Both the position numbers and the translations under genes were made by a program. A stretch of 64,000 bases of DNA, from NCBI RefSeq assembly GCF_002078015.1, contig NZ_LWBP01000002.1, positions 1 to 64,000 of the forward strand, read 5' to 3'. Source of the stretch: Niastella populi (GTDB taxonomy: Bacteria > Bacteroidota > Bacteroidia > Chitinophagales > Chitinophagaceae). The notes beneath the pieces were generated by a model. It saw only the letters and a list, made by a program, of their open reading frames with translations. It was not told where the DNA came from and made no database searches. This document shows, piece by piece, positions 2,390 to 33,059 of the stretch. The first letter of the stretch is position 1, and each line of letters begins with the position of its first letter.

Positions 2390-2873
2390 GCATTTCTTCG
2401 CTCCCCTTAGGTTAGAAATACTTAAAACGTTCGGGGGCTTTCTGTTTCCGTGATTCCAACGACCGAAAGCATCGTCATTGTTGGCGGAAGGGTGTAAAGA
2501 ACTTTACGCTAACAGTATAGCAAACACTTCAATTTCTGTCAAGCCAGATAATATTATCGGAATAAGATCTCAAGAAATTCTTTAAACTGGTCTGCATGGC
2601 CTTGCAGTAGTGCCTAATGATCTGTTGTGGTGCTGGGCTTTGTAAATACTGATTGCAATAAATGAATATAAGCAATATAAGAAATATCGATCATCTTAAA
2701 AACGTGAAAAACGCCCTAATTTACAAAGCTATTTATCTCCATCTTTACTCTAAATTATGTCAAAGGTTATAGTGGGCATTTATTATTTTTTTCCTCACAA
2801 ACAATAGAATACTGTATTCCAAAAGGCGCTGAATTACTGTAGCACCCGCTAATAATTATAAAAACCAACTATT
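2390..2873. other. Intergenic region with one dispersed repeat copy
   Basis: About 480 bases without a convincing gene. It holds repeat copy B (2602-2650, core GTGCTGGGCTTTG at about 2629) and AT-rich sequence leading to the next gene. Nothing else was identified. Confidence 0.5.
2602..2650 (+). repeat. Dispersed repeat, copy B
   Basis: Shares the core GTGCTGGGCTTTG. The upstream block, resembling TTGCAGTAGTGCCTAATGAT, is also matched in copy D at 4307-4360. It is shorter than copies A and E. Confidence 0.65.
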
Positions 2874-3383
2874 ATGTTTATAACTGCAGCAATCAAAACG
2901 CTAAAAGAAGTCCTGGAATTCATTCCTACAGTAATTAATGTTATCAAAAACATTAAAAAGACTGAGTCGTCGTCTACTTTAACAAAAGTTGTTGACACCC
3001 TAGCATGCGATACCCAAGATGCAGCAGTCAATCTTCAAAAATCAATTGATGAAATAGAATATATTTTAAAAGATTCAAAATTCGACTTATCAAAAACGTT
3101 ATATGAGAATGAGGATGCTTTAAAGTTTTGGGACCTCACAAAAAATTATTACTTAAATAGAGCCACAAAAAAGATACGAGGCATTCGAGAAGACCTTCGG
3201 AGCTCGGTTGAAGATGTAGGTAGAATTTTATTGTGTCAAGGAAAATTTGAAAGCATGGAAAAATTTAATGATTTTGTAAGAATCATTACACGGGATTTAG
3301 ATACCATAGACGATAAACCTATTGGTTATATATTAAGTATCTATAGGCAAAAGCTGGAAGAATCATTGAAAATGCTAAGGTAG
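2874..3383 (+). CDS. Hypothetical protein, 169 aa
   Basis: A mostly helical, soluble-looking protein of 169 residues starting at the ATG at 2874. The N-terminal 25 residues are mildly hydrophobic but do not form a clear signal peptide. No catalytic motif is visible. It stands alone and is followed by a convincing intrinsic terminator at 3416-3455, which supports it as an independent transcription unit. I do not recognise the family. Confidence 0.65.
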   Translation: MFITAAIKTLKEVLEFIPTVINVIKNIKKTESSSTLTKVVDTLACDTQDAAVNLQKSIDEIEYILKDSKFDLSKTLYENEDALKFWDLTKNYYLNRATKKIRGIREDLRSSVEDVGRILLCQGKFESMEKFNDFVRIITRDLDTIDDKPIGYILSIYRQKLEESLKMLR

Positions 3384-3415
3384 TAATTTTGCTAACAGTT
3401 CCCTTTTATTAAAAA

Positions 3416-3455
3416 GCCGGGAAGAAATTTATACATCCCGGCCACTTCTCTTTTT
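3416..3455 (+). terminator. Intrinsic terminator after the 169-aa gene
   Basis: GCCGGGA (3416-3422) pairs with TCCCGGC (3436-3442). The stem is followed within a few bases by TCTCTTTTT, ending at 3455. Confidence 0.65.
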
Positions 3456-3783
3456 GAATGTCATGTCAAAAAAGAATTGTTTTCACGATATCATACTTAC
3501 TGATGAAAATCAAAATAATTTATTTGTTTACTTCCTTTACCATTGCTTGCATTCGAAATTCCAAAAGTTTCATAAATTTAATGTAAGTTCTTTCCTAACA
3601 TTGGTTCTGCATCTTATTAGTGGGCTGTAGAGTATTTCTACACATTATCGAAAATTACTGGGCTTTGTTCTGGCGTTCAATGGCATGCACTGGTGCTGGG
3701 CTTTGCGCTAAAACTTCGTGCCATAGTACGACGCGGAAGCTATGGAAGCGGAACAATACTTTTAATGGCCGTGCGAAAGGCAA
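3456..3783. other. Intergenic region with repeat copy C
   Basis: No reliable gene seen. The stretch 3653-3722 holds one full and one partial copy of the dispersed core. A short plus-strand frame at 3620-3835 spans the repeat and the end of a minus-strand gene and is rejected. Confidence 0.5.
3664..3722 (+). repeat. Dispersed repeat, copy C
   Basis: Contains the core GTGCTGGGCTTTG at 3693-3705. A partial core, CTGGGCTTTG, lies just upstream at about 3658-3667. Confidence 0.65.
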
Positions 3784-4077
3784 TCACTCGGATTGCAAGG
3801 TTTCAATGAATTTCTTGAAGCCTGCCTTCTCCTGATCCGTCGCCTGGGCACCTGCTGCCGGACAGAGGAATATGCCGGTGGGTAGCAGGTATCGAAGCAG
3901 CAATGCTGCGCCGGCAAATTGGAACTGCCAGTCGATACTTCCGGCGTATTCTGCCTTGTTTGTAAAGGTGATGCCCATCTTTTGCCGGAGCCAGTCCGCC
4001 GTTTTATAAAAGAGCGCAACGTCGCATGCGCCTAAGAGCTGTACTTCAGCGTATCCCTTTGCTGTCTGCAATACCAT
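3784..4077 (-). CDS. Hypothetical protein, 97 aa
   Basis: A 97-residue protein from an ATG at 4077. Its codon use is more GC-rich than its neighbours and looks like chromosomal genes of this organism. The protein seems to be a small alpha/beta domain (helix 25-36, strand 45-55) with no export signal. The family is not recognised. It lies between two dispersed repeat copies, so it may have moved with the repeat-rich DNA, but that is inference. Confidence 0.55.
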   Translation of the reverse strand: MVLQTAKGYAEVQLLGACDVALFYKTADWLRQKMGITFTNKAEYAGSIDWQFQFAGAALLLRYLLPTGIFLCPAAGAQATDQEKAGFKKFIETLQSE

Positions 4078-4420
4078 AATGGATCAACTGTTTCCGGGCA
4101 CGGTTGGTTTGAAAATTGTTTGCCGCGCAAAGGTGCAAGTTATCGGCTACATGGCAAAGAGCCACAGAGTTGAACCAGGTAAGAACGGGGTGAAAAGCCA
4201 TGCCACATATGATTATTTGTAGTTTAACGGTTCAGATAAGGTTTGAAGGTATATGGCATAAATTTAGGGAAACCTCGCAATGCCGTGACATTTTGCGCCA
4301 GCGTGGCTTTGCTATGTCGCTTAATGATTTGCACAGGTGCTGGGCTTTGTACTGCAGGCCATACGCAGAGAATCACTGATTATAGACAACCGGGTAACAG
4401 GGCTTTCAAACATTCCAAGG
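4078..4420. other. Intergenic region with repeat copy D
   Basis: No gene recognised. It contains dispersed repeat copy D at 4307-4360. A short plus-strand frame over 4243-4443 is made mostly of repeat sequence and runs into the opposite gene, so it is not called. Confidence 0.5.
4307..4360 (+). repeat. Dispersed repeat, copy D
   Basis: Core GTGCTGGGCTTTG at 4338-4350 followed by TACTGCAGG. Its upstream block matches copy B. Confidence 0.7.
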
Positions 4421-6265
4421 TTATATTTTGTTACCTTCACTAATTTTTTCAAAAGTTACCCTGTATTTACTATCAAATATTTCAACCGCTTTTTTTAAAT
4501 TTTTGAGGGAGTCATTTAGGGCTCTCCTTTCCGCTCTTGTAAATTTAGTCTTATTGTTTGCGGCAACACTTCTTATTTCGTCTTCAATGTGACTGGCCTC
4601 GGAAATAACCGAATTGATATTGGTTCCCAGATTAATTGTTGCTTTTATCGAATCAGAGAAAGAATTAAAAGTTTCAATTTTCCTCCGATACGTTTTTATT
4701 GTTTCTGTGCAATAAAATATAGTATCGTTAACTGCCCTTATTAGCCTCCTGTCTTCTTCTATGGAGACTAAGTCCAAATATTTGTTTAACGCTATTTTAC
4801 TTTCATTAACGCATTTACTGCAATTGCTATAAGTCGAAACCATATTCTGCAAGCTACTTTTTATCGCATTGTATTCGTCGGTTATGTCATCAGCGGCATT
4901 CAATCTTTCACAATACCCTTTAAACTTATTGTTATAGAGCGCCTGTTCGAGATCCTCTAATTTTTGTTTTGCATTAGTTACTATTAAATTATTCTTCAAA
5001 AAAGAAATGGCAGATACTTTAGCGATAATGGCGGAATATAACCCAAGCGCGTCATTTGATACATTATTCCCGCCGGCATTGAAAACATTCAATTTTTGAA
5101 GGTCACTGTAATATGTCAGCCGTTTAAAATATATATCAATTTGGTCATTTAATTTTCGGGTCACTGGTGCATACCCGCTATTTGCATCAGTATATAAAGC
5201 AGGCTCAATCTCTTTGGCCTTTTTCTTTATATCCTCAAATTTCAAAATAGCACTGTACGCATTAGTTAAGGGTTCTTCATCATTGGAGGATAAGGCCTTT
5301 TCAATTTTATTAATAATCTTCAAATAATCTAGCAAAACAGCTTCTGCAAAATTTTGCTGGTCGGATATGCTACTTTTGTTGACAATTAAAATGGAATCTA
5401 ATGCCCTAATTTCGCCATCAGTTATCGTAGTATATCCCGCTCTTTCAATTCTTTTGGAAGGTATGCCTTCCAATCCATAATAATTATTGAGGGTTTGCAA
5501 TACGATCAAGTATGGAAATTCCTCATATTCGGTACCGTTTTCTAAAAGCGAAAAATAACCTGAAGCACTCTTATTTAGCCTCAAATTTTCAGCTTTCGGA
5601 AGCTCCGCATCCGTTGGCGCAAAAAAGTAGATGTTATAGGATAATATCTTCTTATATTGGTTTTTGAAGGGTTCAAATAAAACTTTTGCCTCAAGCTTCT
5701 GATCTTCCGCTGCCTGCTTAAGGAGGCTCGAAAAGAAAGTATACGTCTTCTTGGCCACATCCACGCTCACCAAGCCGGTCGGATTGGTGATAAGGGGAGA
5801 AACAATATCTGACATGGAACTCAGGATCGAAAGTGCACGATTATTTATCGTGATTTGGGTAGTAATAATTGCATCTAATGTTCTTTTCTCCTCTGGTTTG
5901 TATAGGTATTTCTTTAGTATTGTTCGATCTTCAATCGTTGAAGTGTTAAAACTATTATTTTTCCCTTTTTCAAATAAAAAAAGCGGAATTTTCTGGTTTG
6001 CAGTTTCACTTGCAAGCTCCAATTCCCCATAGAAATATTTTATTGACTTGAAACGACTTTTAACAAATTCCGGAGAAGTCAACTTATCAGCGCGTCTTAT
6101 TACTACGGTAATGTCGGCATAAGGATATTTTTTGTAGTCACTGGATATTTGAGAGTTATCCATTAATTGGATATTTTCTACCTTTCGTATAGGGAAAAAT
6201 AAATTTTGCGCACTTAATTCACCGATAAAAGTAGACAACATAAAGAGCAAGTAAAAATTCTTCAT
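4421..6265 (-). CDS. Secreted helical protein of unknown function, 614 aa
   Basis: A large exported protein. The start at 6265 is preferred to the in-frame ATG at 6325 because it begins directly with a signal peptide (MKNFYLLFMLSTFIGELSAQ, cleavage after SAQ). The mature part is mixed alpha/beta for about 220 residues, then long helical stretches to the C terminus with a CSKC pair near residue 500. No enzyme motif was found. It is flanked by dispersed repeats on both sides and has no operon partner. The AT-rich codon use resembles other accessory genes here. Family not recognised. Confidence 0.75.
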   Translation of the reverse strand: MKNFYLLFMLSTFIGELSAQNLFFPIRKVENIQLMDNSQISSDYKKYPYADITVVIRRADKLTSPEFVKSRFKSIKYFYGELELASETANQKIPLFLFEKGKNNSFNTSTIEDRTILKKYLYKPEEKRTLDAIITTQITINNRALSILSSMSDIVSPLITNPTGLVSVDVAKKTYTFFSSLLKQAAEDQKLEAKVLFEPFKNQYKKILSYNIYFFAPTDAELPKAENLRLNKSASGYFSLLENGTEYEEFPYLIVLQTLNNYYGLEGIPSKRIERAGYTTITDGEIRALDSILIVNKSSISDQQNFAEAVLLDYLKIINKIEKALSSNDEEPLTNAYSAILKFEDIKKKAKEIEPALYTDANSGYAPVTRKLNDQIDIYFKRLTYYSDLQKLNVFNAGGNNVSNDALGLYSAIIAKVSAISFLKNNLIVTNAKQKLEDLEQALYNNKFKGYCERLNAADDITDEYNAIKSSLQNMVSTYSNCSKCVNESKIALNKYLDLVSIEEDRRLIRAVNDTIFYCTETIKTYRRKIETFNSFSDSIKATINLGTNINSVISEASHIEDEIRSVAANNKTKFTRAERRALNDSLKNLKKAVEIFDSKYRVTFEKISEGNKI

Positions 6266-6629
6266 GCAACAGGGTTTTGGGAGTTGGGAAATGGTAATCG
6301 GGTTGCGAAGTTTAAAAAATTTCAAAACCCAAAAAACCGGAAAAACACTGTTTTTTATGTGAGATATTACAAAAATGGCCTACCGATATTTCTTTTTTGA
6401 TCTGGAACCCTGGGCAACGATTTGTACCTGCTGCTGGGCTTTGCACTGCAGCTCGGTGCGTGGGTGCTGCGTGGATGGAAAATATGAAGCAAGTACAGGC
6501 GCCGAAGTATGCGACACAACGGAAGAAGTATCAAAGTTCAAGTGCTGCTAACAAAATTGAATTTAAACAAATGCGATTTTCTTTATCAGGATTTGCGTAT
6601 CTTATCAGCCTCTCTCCCGAAATCCTTTG
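6266..6629. other. Intergenic region with repeat copy E
   Basis: Contains the longest pairwise match of the dispersed repeat family (6421-6530). No protein gene is supported; the plus-strand frames at 6397-6793 are repeat-derived or antisense to the next gene. Confidence 0.5.
6421..6530 (+). repeat. Dispersed repeat, copy E
   Basis: CTGCTGGGCTTTGCACTGCAG-like core at 6430-6450, followed by a downstream block alignable to copy A (1341-1440) across roughly 95 bp with scattered mismatches. Confidence 0.75.
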
Positions 6630-7121
6630 TTACGGAAGCGCAGGTACAAGTAGCTCAACTGCAAATAGCGCTTGAATCTGCGCTCGCTTCCAAACTTGGG
6701 GACGATACCATCCATTCTCAAATTGCAACAATACTTTTTCTTCCGCTTTATGCGGCATTAGCTTGCACAGTACCCCTTTGTTATCCTGGTTGAAAGCAAG
6801 GTATTCACATCCGTAATTGATAAGGTGCAGGTGGGGTAATCGCTTCACTCCAATCCAGTCCCCTTTCCTATACACCGGACTATTCCGATCATCGAGCACC
6901 GGGACATATCCGTGTATGAGGCCGGTATGTTTAAATCGTACAGTCCTGAGCAGGACCCCCGGCTGCCCGTCAACCACATGAACGCTCCCTGGATACTTTT
7001 CTAAATAGAAGACTCCAGCTTTAAGATGAGCGGCAAACGGTATCCATACCATTATGAATCGTTGTGCGTTATGGGAATCGTCACAATGCACATCGTTTTG
7101 CTTCGTCAATTCCTTTTCCAT
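6630..7121 (-). CDS. S24/LexA-like domain protein, degenerate, 163 aa
   Basis: A 163-residue protein whose central part (about residues 70-150) follows the layout of S24 peptidase domains: a V(L)DDR...YRKGDWIGV segment, then NYGCEYLAF and KGVLCKL. In active S24 proteins a Ser precedes the Met-x-Pro segment and a Lys lies in the later VKR strand. Here those places hold Arg and Cys, so self-cleavage is unlikely. It may be a binding or regulatory domain. Its neighbour at 7165-7650 is a divergent paralogue in the same orientation, only 43 bp away, so they are probably co-transcribed. Confidence 0.6.
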   Translation of the reverse strand: MEKELTKQNDVHCDDSHNAQRFIMVWIPFAAHLKAGVFYLEKYPGSVHVVDGQPGVLLRTVRFKHTGLIHGYVPVLDDRNSPVYRKGDWIGVKRLPHLHLINYGCEYLAFNQDNKGVLCKLMPHKAEEKVLLQFENGWYRPQVWKRAQIQALFAVELLVPALP

Positions 7122-29032: not shown

Positions 29033-32000
29033 TCACATTGACCTCCTGTACTGTCCCCCCACTTCAAACAATGCATGAGTGATCTGGCCAAGTGAACAAT
29101 ACTTCACGGTTTCCATCAGCTCTTCAAAAATGTTCCCATTGTTGACGGCTACCTTTTTAAGCCGGTTCAACATCTCTTCCGATCTGTTCTCATTCCTTTT
29201 CCAGAATGCATGCAGGTTCTGGATCTGCTGTTCTTTTTCTTCGGTTGTACTGCGAATTACTTCACCCGGCAAAATCGTAGGGCTCCCCTTTTTATTAAGA
29301 AAAGTATTCACCCCGATAATCGGCAGGTCGCCATTATGTTTAAGACTTTCGTAATGTAAACTTTCTTCCTGGATCTTATTACGCTGGTACATGCGTTCCA
29401 TAGCGCCCAGCACACCACCCCGTTCGGTAAGGCGGTCAAATTCTGCCAGCACCGCTTCTTCAACCAGGTCGGTCATTTCTTCAATAAGAAAAGAACCCTG
29501 TATAAAGTTTTCGGTTTTCGCGCTGCCCAGCTCGCGGTTGATGATGAGCTGAATGGCCATGGCGCGGCGTACACTTTCTTCCGTTGGCGTAGTGATCGCT
29601 TCATCATAGGCGTTTGTATGTAAACTGTTGCAGTTGTCGTAAATGGCGTATAATGCCTGCAGCGTAGTACGAATATCATTGAAATCGATCTCCTGGGCAT
29701 GCAGGCTGCGGCCTGAGGTTTGAATATGGTATTTCAGTTTCTGGCTGCGGTCGTTGCCTTTGTATTTATACTTCATGGCCTTGGCCCAAATACGCCGCGC
29801 TACCCGGCCTATGACACTATATTCTGCATCCATCCCATTGCTGAAGAAGAAAGACAGGTTGGGAGCGAACTCATCGATATGCATGCCGCGGCTCAGGTAA
29901 TATTCTACATACGTAAACCCATTGGCCAGGGTAAACGCCAATTGCGTAATGGGGTTGGCGCCGGCTTCTGCAATGTGATACCCGCTGATACTTACACTGT
30001 AAAAATTGCGCACCTTTTGCTGAATGAAATATTCCTGCACATCACCCATCAGCTTCAATGCAAACTCGGTGCTGAAGATGCAGGTGTTCTGTGCCTGGTC
30101 TTCTTTCAATATGTCGGCCTGCACGGTGCCGCGTACCTGGGCCAGCGCTTCGGCTTTTATTTTTGCGTAAACATCAGCCGGTAATACGTCTTCACCCGAT
30201 ACGCCCAGTAATTTCAAACCCAAACCATCATTGCCATCGGGCAGGCGTTCAGGAGCTGATGGATTGTAATAAGTGGGTTTTGTAAGATGCTGAAATTTCT
30301 TTGCCATTTCACCATCCACCCGTGACCATTCACCATTTGCCGCTATCCATTTTTCACATTGCTGATCGATGGCCGCATTCATAAAGAACGCAAGTATTAT
30401 CGGGGCCGGACCGTTTATGGTCATGCTCACCGATGTTTTAGGATCGCACAGATCGAAACCGCTGTATAATTTTTTGGCGTCATCAACCGTGGCAATGCTT
30501 ACCCCGCTGTTGCCTACTTTACCATAGATATCGGGCCGGTGAGCCGGGTCTTCTCCATACAGGGTCACACTGTCAAAGGCGGTTGACAACCGGCGCGCCG
30601 GCTGATCGAGCGACACATAGTGAAAACGTTTGTTGGTACGTTCGGGACCGCCTTCGCCGGCAAACATGCGCGTAGGGTCTTCGCCTTCGCGTTTTAACGG
30701 AAACACGCCCGAAGTATATGGATATTCACCCGGGATATTTTCCTGCAATTGCCATTTCAGAATATCGCCCCAGTCAGTATACCTGGGCAGCACCACTTTA
30801 GGTATCCTTGTTCCGCTGAGCGAGCGGGTGGTCATTGGTTGTTTAAAAACTTTATCGCGTACCTGGTATTCAAAGAAATCGGCTTTGTATTTGGCAACAA
30901 CCCCGGGCCATTCTTCCATCAGTTTTCTGCATTCGGGATGTATTTTCTCTTCAAGCGATTTCTTTATTAACCCAAGTTCGTCTTTTACGGCGGCAGACAA
31001 TGCGGTAACGGCAGAAAGCGTTCCCTGCACCTGGTATAATTGGGAGGCCAGCGCGCATTGTTCTTTTACCCATTCATCATAACCGCGGTTGGCATCCGAA
31101 ATCTCAGAAAGGTAGCGTACGCGTTTGGGCGGAATGATCTGCGATCTGGTGGTGGTGTCTTTAAGATGCGCATGCACTTCCACCTGTCCGAATTCAATGC
31201 CTGTTTTTGTTTTAATGGTGATCATCAGCTTTTCGAACAGCTCATTGATGCCCGCATCGTTGAACTGGGCGGCAATGGTGCCGATCACCGGCAGTTCTTC
31301 CTCTTTGGCCGACCATAACCCATGGTTGCGTTTGAACTGTTTACGCACATCGTGCAAGGCATCGAGTGCGCCGCTTTTATCGAATTTATTGATGGCGATC
31401 ACATCGGCATAATCGAGCATGTTGATCTTTTCCAGCTGCGAGGCCGCGCCATATTCGGGCGTCATCACATACAGGCTCACATCGCAATATTCAAGAATGC
31501 TGACGTCGCTTTGTCCAACCCCGGCCGATTCAAGAATGATAAGATCAAAAGCGGCTTCTTTACATACATCGATGGCGTCCTGTACATGTTCGCTTAACGC
31601 AACATCGCTATCGCGGGTGGCCAGTGAGCGCATGTAAGCGCGGGGCGAATGAATGCTGTTCATTCGAATGCGATCACCCAACAGGGCGCCGCCTGTTTTC
31701 TTTTTGGATGGGTCAACAGAAATAACGGCTATCGTTTTTTCAGGAAATGCATTCAAATAGCGCCGTACAATTTCATCGGTAACGGATGATTTGCCGGCGC
31801 CGCCGGTACCTGTAATGCCTAATACGGCCCCCTCCCGGCCTCCCCCGGTGGGGGAGGGGTTAGATACCTCGCTATTATTCTCGTCAATCTCTTTATCGGG
31901 CAGTTTAGAGAGTGAGTCTTGTATATTATCCAAAACCTTTTCGAGTTCGTAAGTAATTTCATCGTTGGTAAACCGGATTACCTGAAAGCCTAATTTATTA

Positions 32001-32875
32001 AGGACATCAGTTCTTTCTTTGTCACTGATTTTCATGTCAGGTAATTGATGGTAATTACCATCAACCTCTATGATTAATCCCTTTTTCAAACAAACAAAAT
32101 CAGCAATAAAGCTTCCGATTATATGCTGCCTTTTGAATTTATACCCTTCTTTTTTATTTCTAAGTTTATCCCATAATATTTCTTCGGCAACTGTAGCTTC
32201 GTTTCTATGTGACAAAGCAAATTCTTTAAGCATTCCATATAATGACGGATCGGCTTTGAACTGGTTTACCGTGATCGATGATCCATCATATATGGTTTCC
32301 GGCCTAATCTTATTTTCAGCCAATGTAATTGCACGGGCTATCCTTCTTATATCTTTCTTTTCCCCCAACGGCAATTTCCCATTCCACTTACGGAAAGCCA
32401 GCCAATAATCAGACTGCTGACCTTCTCCTCCCCCACCGGGGGGAGCAGGGAGGGGGCTACATTGCTTTATCACATCTTCGATCATCCCTTCCAACCCTAA
32501 CCTTCTTCCATCATCCGGACTATAGATCCGCGTAATACCATAACTGTGCAATTCGGTGATCTCCTGCGGCAAAATGGTGCCGCCCCCGCCGCCGAATATT
32601 TTTATATGCCCGCATCCATTTTCATCGAGCAGGTCTTTCATGTATTTAAAGAACTCCACATGACCACCCTGGTAGCTGGTAATGGCAATGCCCTGGGCAT
32701 CTTCTTCAATGGCACATTCAACGATCTCTGCTACCGACCGGTTATGACCAAGGTGGATGATCTCGGCGCCCTTCGACTGTAATATGCGCCGCATTATATT
32801 GATAGCAGCATCATGACCATCAAACAGGGAAGCGGCAGTAACTATCCTTACTTTATTAACTGGCGTATTACTCAT
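29033..32875 (-). CDS. icmF: IcmF-like fused acyl-CoA mutase with an inserted DUF559 domain, 1280 aa
   Basis: Adenosylcobalamin-dependent mutase with its G-protein chaperone in one chain. Order: B12-binding domain (about 1-140, with [14 protein letters not shown]), linker, G domain (about 352-560, Walker [12 protein letters not shown]), mutase barrel to the C terminus. Fused isobutyryl-CoA mutases interconvert isobutyryl- and butyryl-CoA; other substrates are possible. The usual family length is about 1,090; here about 190 residues are extra, mainly the DUF559-like nuclease domain (about 215-325) between Pro/Gly-rich segments (140-150 and 339-350) that translate the flanking GC-rich inverted repeats. 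The frame is intact through it. Single gene, convergent with the glycosylase. Confidence 0.88.
31826..31862. repeat. Left GC-rich inverted repeat of the cassette
   Basis: Reads GGCCCCCTCCCGGC, then TCCCCCGGTGGGGGAGG at about 31841-31857. It matches the reverse complement of 32421-32460 with few differences. Confidence 0.7.
32421..32460. repeat. Right GC-rich inverted repeat of the cassette
   Basis: Contains CTCCCCCACCGGGGGGAG (a hairpin of its own) followed by CAGGGAGGGGGCTAC. It is read in icmF as the segment [13 protein letters not shown]. Confidence 0.7.
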
Positions 32876-33059
32876 AATTCAAGCATTACAAAATCGGGCT
32901 AAAGTTAGTTCAAAAAAGCTAATGCTTGTTAGTATTCCATGCATATCTGCTTGTAAAACTGAATAAAATGCTAAACTTCCGGGAACGATTCCGGAATTTT
33001 TCGTTTGGTTTGCAGTGAAAATGAAATAGTTTCGGCCAACAAAAAATTATACTGGTAAA

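Follow-up and report, generated by a model that had tools for sequence, protein, structure and literature searches.

Inteins that carry a homing nuclease place it in frame in conserved host proteins, with a patchy distribution and at recurrent sites. Homing genes are also fused within the fungal mitochondrial protein gene rps3, where no splicing is involved, and in the REP/REPIN system with its RAYT transposase, pairs of inverted hairpin repeats lie around a DNA-acting enzyme. Rickettsia palindromic elements (RPEs), of about 150 bp, occur in frame in many unrelated genes according to a review (PMC10969869). Here we report a nuclease domain of the DUF559 family (PF04480) that lies in frame within icmF, the gene of the fused isobutyryl-CoA mutase, in a 64,000-nucleotide stretch of Niastella populi (contig NZ_LWBP01000002.1, positions 1 to 64,000; hereafter the window), and its counterparts in other conserved genes. 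With little better than even confidence, and from sequence comparison, we read the insert as a homing-endonuclease-like element that resides in frame inside host proteins and relies on permissive loops instead of splicing.

This arrangement both resembles and departs from the described systems. The nuclease shares its catalytic-domain fold and sequence profile with the EDxHD homing endonuclease I-Bth0305I, and DUF559 lineages cluster by site, but here the domain has no surrounding intron or intein, is translated as one of the host enzyme's domains and is accompanied by no extra DNA-binding module that we could see. Inteins likewise lie in frame in conserved hosts, patchily and at recurrent sites, whereas the DUF559 insert has no splicing domain, is located in loops of variable length and must be tolerated by its host. 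As in rps3, a homing-type gene is found within a protein gene without splicing; the DUF559 copies, however, are mostly internal and occur in about 15 kinds of bacterial gene. Paired inverted hairpins around a DNA-acting enzyme are reminiscent of REPIN and RAYT, but the enzyme is a DUF559 nuclease and not an HUH transposase, and the repeats are in coding frames. Palindromic repeats in frame in many unrelated genes recall the RPEs, from which they differ in that some repeat pairs enclose a nuclease and in that each repeat is about 31 bp long, compared with about 150 bp for RPEs in the same review (PMC10969869).

The insert-bearing gene of the window comprises the following features:

29033..32875, minus strand: icmF, fused isobutyryl-CoA mutase, insert included; a single open reading frame (ORF) of 1280 aa with the Pfam domains B12-binding, MeaB, MM_CoA_mutase and DUF559
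32427..32457, minus strand: left GC-rich inverted repeat, itself a hairpin; translated, in loop 1 after the B12 domain (repeat comparison and hairpin survey)
32309..32413, minus strand: native IcmF linker segment (SDYW...AENK, aa 155-189), between the left repeat and the nuclease; homologous in insert-free relatives
32228..32287, minus strand: N-terminal extension of the nuclease, with an ADPxxYxxL part common to many DUF559 copies of other hosts
31910..32227, minus strand: DUF559 nuclease domain with a Vsr/EDxHD-like fold (Pfam; conserved active-site-type residues; matches to 3hrl and to I-Bth0305I, 3r3p)
31827..31857, minus strand: right GC-rich inverted repeat, also a hairpin on its own; immediately precedes the G domain, with five solo copies elsewhere that share its reading

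Pfam placed B12-binding at aa 10-113 of the product, DUF559 at 217-322 and MeaB at 349-551, followed by the mutase domain. The DUF559 match (E 8.6e-31; 106.5 bits, exceeding the curated PF04480 cut-off of 20.6) lies in frame, with the B12-binding domain on one side and the MeaB-like G domain on the other, which bears out the preliminary description of a complete domain in the linker before the G domain. The same description gave an excess of about 190 residues; this was too high, as the insert-free frames of five genomes of the same genus (G001, G003, G004, G006 and G007) have 1124-1134 aa against 1281 for the window, counted alike, and the excess is therefore 147-157 residues. A search for the G domain in the window's genome returned one full-length IcmF match, the other being a frame of 307 aa, of MeaB size. 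No intein or other splicing (Hint) domain was found in IcmF by Pfam (E up to 0.001), in agreement with the earlier statement that intein motifs are lacking, and no group I or II intron was found in positions 31400-32900 by Rfam (E up to 1), where the single match was an sRNA far below its gathering score. As neither search gave a match of these kinds, an intron or intein around the insert was rejected. In an AlphaFold2 model of IcmF residues 1-620 (mean pLDDT 72) the host domains are folded and DUF559 stands apart as its own module, predicted with low to moderate confidence; pLDDT falls below 50 in parts of the two repeat peptides (aa 145-153 and 333-346).

The inverted repeats of icmF are 31 nt each and 90% complementary, and each one is also a hairpin on its own. 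The pair is thus present as first described, but its left member is separated from the nuclease by 35 native residues and a short extension. The native segment occurs in insert-free relatives as well, and the picture of a single cassette tightly bounded by repeats was not supported, since native linker lies inside the pair. Inspected by eye, the linkers run from the left repeat in variable loop 1 through the native segment to DUF559 and the right repeat in variable loop 2, and on to Walker A, an order that held without exception in the 13 IcmF loci that carry the insert at this site and whose linkers could be read. Perfect GC-rich hairpins (stem of at least 6) were present in loop 1 of 11/13 insert-bearing versus 1/97 insert-free genes and in loop 2 of 12/13 versus 5/97 (97 of 101 insert-free loci could be parsed, and these are not all independent because some unnamed and named loci share identical linkers). 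The sole insert-free gene with hairpins in both loops is L301. By eye, L299 and L300 retain shortened repeat-like peptides, and L300 also a YDG..LEGA remnant, from which we infer in-frame loss of the nuclease. One further locus, L296, was rejected as insert-bearing, its insert-sized stretch being a run of N.

Within the genus of the window, DUF559 is present in icmF of G000, G002, G005 and G009 and absent from five of the nine readable genes, so that alignment with related icmF genes defines an empty site and the notion that all relatives carry the insert fails. G008 (61% complete) gave only a MeaB-like match and is not counted among the nine. Linker type differs between the insert-bearing and insert-free species of this genus; co-conversion of the linker was considered but not retained as an explanation, the trees being too weak to show transfer. 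In G005 (single contig; L048/L075) the B12 part of icmF and the linker are in different frames, and the gene looks broken or missequenced because the part upstream of the linker sits in another frame.

The scale of the phenomenon was not foreseen from the single locus. PF04480 matches were found in 27 of 59 relatives, many of them in long frames, in 126 of 294 same-family genomes (E up to 1e-18) and, phylum-wide, in 159 of 395 genomes (E up to 1e-20). Among the best 150 matches by E-value in the 294 same-family genomes, 96 were in frames of at least 250 aa (hand count). Adding 80 of 84 further long-frame loci to the earlier ones gave 100 DUF559 frames of at least 250 aa; L038 and L039 were set aside as other long proteins, which left 98 host frames with 101 DUF559 copies. 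Hosts were named by NCBIfam and Pfam on at least one representative per cluster, and the remaining members by sequence clustering and motifs. About 14 kinds were recognized in the family-level sample: LeuRS, MetRS, MetH, AroC, CinA, a ligase-associated DEXH helicase, AcsA, HsdR, IspG, adenine deaminase, ArgB, HemE, an M23 peptidase and IcmF. With the phylum sample the number comes to about 15; there LeuRS, MetH and HsdR were again hosts, and one frame contains PurQ (seven representatives scanned). Most copies are internal, but the nuclease precedes the host domain in the eight ArgB copies and follows it in the HemE copy; some of the host genes are cut by contig ends. Several hosts have more than one insertion site: two in LeuRS, three in IcmF and four in MetH (one in the C part, two in the N part at L165/L170 and at L135, and one before the B12 domain), and three LeuRS genes carry two inserts each. 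The loops that hold the insert vary in length in IcmF, at LeuRS site 1 and in MetH. In the phylum sample, L328, L329, L330 and L333 have DUF559 with LPLGEGxGEG-type linkers in long frames, which we take to resemble methylase or specificity genes of restriction systems; the domain scan of L328 and L333 gave only a weak PglX match, in L333.

As a control we examined GIY-YIG nucleases in 60 same-family genomes. Among the matches listed they lay in frames below 180 aa, except for frames of about 600 aa, the size of UvrC, a pair with 499 and 320 aa, and a single HsdR. In-frame residence is therefore no general habit of small nucleases in that family, and GIY-YIG as a second in-frame cargo was rejected as a general feature, with one HsdR gene among the matches listed. 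In L124 (frame 2770-6909) an HsdR carries two different in-frame nuclease domains, GIY-YIG and DUF559.

LeuRS is an essential enzyme. When it was searched in 56 genomes, the matches for a genome mostly belonged to a single gene, split into two or three pieces that share a frame, with or without insert; G311 has two loci, and in G033 and G184 the pieces are on two contigs. An insert-bearing LeuRS frame of 1327 aa was found in G154, which is 100% complete. Being essential and mostly single-copy, LeuRS must either stay active with the insert in place or lose it after transcription. The nuclease resides in frame in LeuRS, mostly a single-copy host, and in IcmF, of which the window's genome has one, at homologous sites that recur across genera: the LeuRS1 insert is present in 28 genomes with 22 genus codes, and IcmF1 in 11 genomes with 7. 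The LeuRS of the window's genome (L242, frame of 1061 aa) has, after SSRFVYRIN, an extra in-frame segment of another kind, about 130 residues long, absent from eight aligned same-genus relatives and not among the DUF559 matches.

The nuclease appears intact in its hosts. In the numbering of the window's DUF559 segment, E29, W33, Q48, D57, E68, H74, D83 and R86 are invariant in 101/101 in-frame copies, and D70 is present in 100/101. A catalytic role of these columns and a residue-by-residue match to the EDxHD motif are our own reading of the family. Frameshifts would harm the host and so be purged; missense decay would be possible, yet none is seen at the conserved columns. Among six IcmF copies dN/dS was 0.045-0.119 in 5 of 15 pairs, a rough estimate because the other ten pairs exceed the limit of the synonymous correction. 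The sequence profile matched PDB entries 3hrl, a DUF559-like protein titled 'endonuclease-like protein' (E 1.1e-33), and 3r3p, 'mobile intron protein' or I-Bth0305I (E 1.9e-6), as well as PvuRts1I (E 0.0055). A domain model built from three sequences reached a mean pLDDT of 77, the other four models 53-60, and in Foldseek its first three ranks were 3hrl (E 2.3e-7) and two chains of 3r3p, the I-Bth0305I catalytic domain (E 3.6e-4). A weaker kinship was seen with PvuRts1I and AbaSI, which are restriction enzymes.

For a tree of 117 DUF559 copies, 8 of 125 domain matches were removed first (two in unrelated long proteins and six short fragments); many forks stay open because the alignment columns are few. 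With the free copies as one group and 18 host sites as the others (19 in all), 29 changes of site are needed on this tree, compared with a mean of 81.5 for shuffled labels, and none of 200 shuffles was as low as 29. IcmF1 (11 rows) accounts for two changes, ArgB (8) for one and LeuRS1 (29) for 11, of which at least three are forced by starred branches, as gains or as losses. The closest relative occupies the same host site for 72 of the 101 in-frame copies; it never comes from the same genome, even for the 43 copies from genomes with several. Lineages are thus tied to homologous sites and patchily present, as in homing elements, save for three small site groups that do not cluster. Distances of DUF559 and host were compared at eight sites, with Spearman coefficients of 0.26 for LeuRS1, 0.54 for LeuRS2, 0.50 for IcmF1, 0.59 for MetH, 0.43 for AroC, 0.90 for MetRS, 0.75 for CinA (not significant) and -0.09 for ArgB. 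These data point to mostly vertical descent with losses, while exchange is suggested at ArgB and for one LeuRS1 pair (L130/L026). Within the genus of the window, the LeuRS tree forces at least two changes of insert presence; the IcmF nucleases there are 81-92% identical in amino acids, with synonymous sites near or beyond saturation. The earlier suggestion of a homing-like insert that entered a coding gene without breaking it is supported, as is patchiness among relatives; a recent arrival is not.

Repeats related to those of icmF also occur without a nuclease. A relaxed repeat pattern found 12 places in the window's genome (control 0), so further copies exist, contrary to one possibility raised in the preliminary description; two are the icmF pair and ten are solo. 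Eight of the ten are within ORFs with Pfam domains on both sides or around (DNA ligase, coproporphyrinogen oxidase, the N part of the homocysteine methyltransferase MetH, a UvrD-like helicase, the MetH activation part, FecR, FG-GAP/UnbV and a Mur ligase), and L213 and L215 are seemingly intergenic. L207-L210 and L212 are in the same reading frame as the right icmF repeat, L217, a right-type repeat, has a different reading frame, and L214 and L216 belong to the left type. The solo repeat in the MetH N part sits where L165 and L170 have DUF559, and that in the C part where L044 and others have it. At the MetH C site, for which 21 of 30 loci were parsed, only G000 has a full repeat and G002 is empty; by eye, short repeat-like pieces were seen in G007 and G008, and no target duplication. 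The palindromes are in frame in unrelated genes, an arrangement like that of RPEs. Compared with a cross-locus null, repeat arms scored above the 95% level in 44 of 117 copies (38 of 98 not labelled free and 6 of 19 free), with a median of 16.5 versus 9.5; the remaining 73 fail this null, which is conservative because null pairs share GC-rich repeat families, and the MetH C-site copies are at its level. Two Y1_Tnp matches were obtained in the window's genome, neither near these repeats, so that a linkage of the RAYT kind was not found and a transposase link has no support.

Lineages bound to sites, patchy presence, an intact nuclease and a homing-type fold together make the pattern of a homing element without splicing, and solo-repeat alleles occupy two of the same sites; loops of variable length and flexible linkers suggest tolerance as the alternative to splicing. 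On this reading, a DUF559 nuclease without gene borders of its own would be translated as part of a conserved enzyme, forming an additional domain in a loop that tolerates it, and the GC-rich hairpin repeats would encode the flexible Pro/Gly linkers that hold it in place. The domain would cut insert-free alleles of its host gene, recombination repair would copy the element into the cut allele, the host would stay functional as one unspliced chain, and in-frame deletion would leave either an empty site again or a repeat scar. The repeats may be either mobile units with the nuclease as cargo or linkers selected along with it. Several results weigh against the homing interpretation. The Pfam scan of IcmF showed no extra DNA-binding module. 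Copies at MetH-N (3 rows), in adenine deaminase (3) and in HsdR (2) do not cluster by site, and at the IcmF site L167 has a DUF559 from a different lineage. A single insertion event does not account for the native segment between the IcmF repeats, which argues for more than one. The correlation of DUF559 and host distances is positive at seven of the eight sites and significant at six, with only ArgB uncorrelated, so that old vertical insertion fits better than frequent horizontal homing. Invasion in the window's genus was not recent, given the saturated synonymous sites, and patchiness at this level rests on the LeuRS tree because either icmF tree forces only one change.

Given the vertical signal, a domesticated role is conceivable. 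An accessory domain that entered long ago and was kept for a service to the cell, such as DNA repair, mismatch correction or defence, with a strongly expressed enzyme as carrier and vertical descent with losses, would agree with the retained active-site-type residues, the correlated distances at most sites, the synonymous saturation and the weaker kinship with PvuRts1I and AbaSI; we nevertheless think it rather unlikely, as about 15 unrelated kinds of carrier show no evident common theme, close relatives lack the insert, lineages cluster by site and free copies have decayed. Less likely again is that the hairpin repeats are themselves the mobile units, inserting in frame as RPEs do, possibly through a hairpin-acting transposase, with DUF559 as trapped cargo. 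The ten solo copies, eight of them in frame in ORFs with Pfam domains, the two at MetH sites where relatives have DUF559, and the hairpins that track the insert in IcmF would all fit, but neither of the only two Y1 transposase matches is near a repeat, no target duplication was seen by eye at the MetH site, and the nearest relative of a DUF559 copy was never in the same genome. Removal of the insert by some protein- or RNA-level mechanism, giving a mature host without it, would explain why conserved and partly essential enzymes carry inserts with the frame kept at both ends. This we regard as improbable in view of the negative Pfam and Rfam searches for inteins and introns, the variable length of the loops in IcmF, LeuRS site 1 and MetH, and the folded host domains with low-confidence repeat peptides in the AlphaFold2 model.

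If the homing interpretation holds, some 100 genes of about 15 kinds, several of them essential, with an apparently intact nuclease and no sign of splicing would show another route for such elements. It is possible, though we would stop short of calling it probable, that this is a third way for homing endonucleases to survive in conserved genes beside introns and inteins, with a tolerated extra domain in place of splicing, hairpin repeats that double as linkers and solo repeats as the short form. It would account for odd long enzymes in Bacteroidota annotations and suggest what might drive palindromic repeats within reading frames; those of the Rickettsia type would gain an autonomous partner. 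LeuRS, MetRS, MetH and IcmF would provide natural examples of tolerated sites for domain insertion. We found no prior description of in-frame DUF559 elements in titles and the beginnings of abstracts on DUF559/COG2852/PF04480, in-frame homing, palindromes with a nuclease, LeuRS inserts, EDxHD/Vsr and split inteins, in a body of literature with few subscription papers.

The hairpin arms at 31827-31857 and 32427-32457 and their homologues differ between species by paired changes (CCTCCCCC/GGGGGAGG versus CCCCCTCC/GGAGGGGG), which hints that a DNA or RNA hairpin, beyond the peptide alone, may be selected or replaced as a unit. Hairpins also accompany free copies of the nuclease. A free, truncated DUF559 copy lies in L002 (1400-1800), between what we take to be nuoF and nuoG, and is flanked by CCCCTNAAGGGG hairpins; its same-genus counterparts are one frame in L055 and shortened or broken in L035 and L059. 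Upstream of L036, tandem CCCCCTAAA..CCCCCTAAAGGGGGA hairpin units adjoin a broken DUF559 copy.

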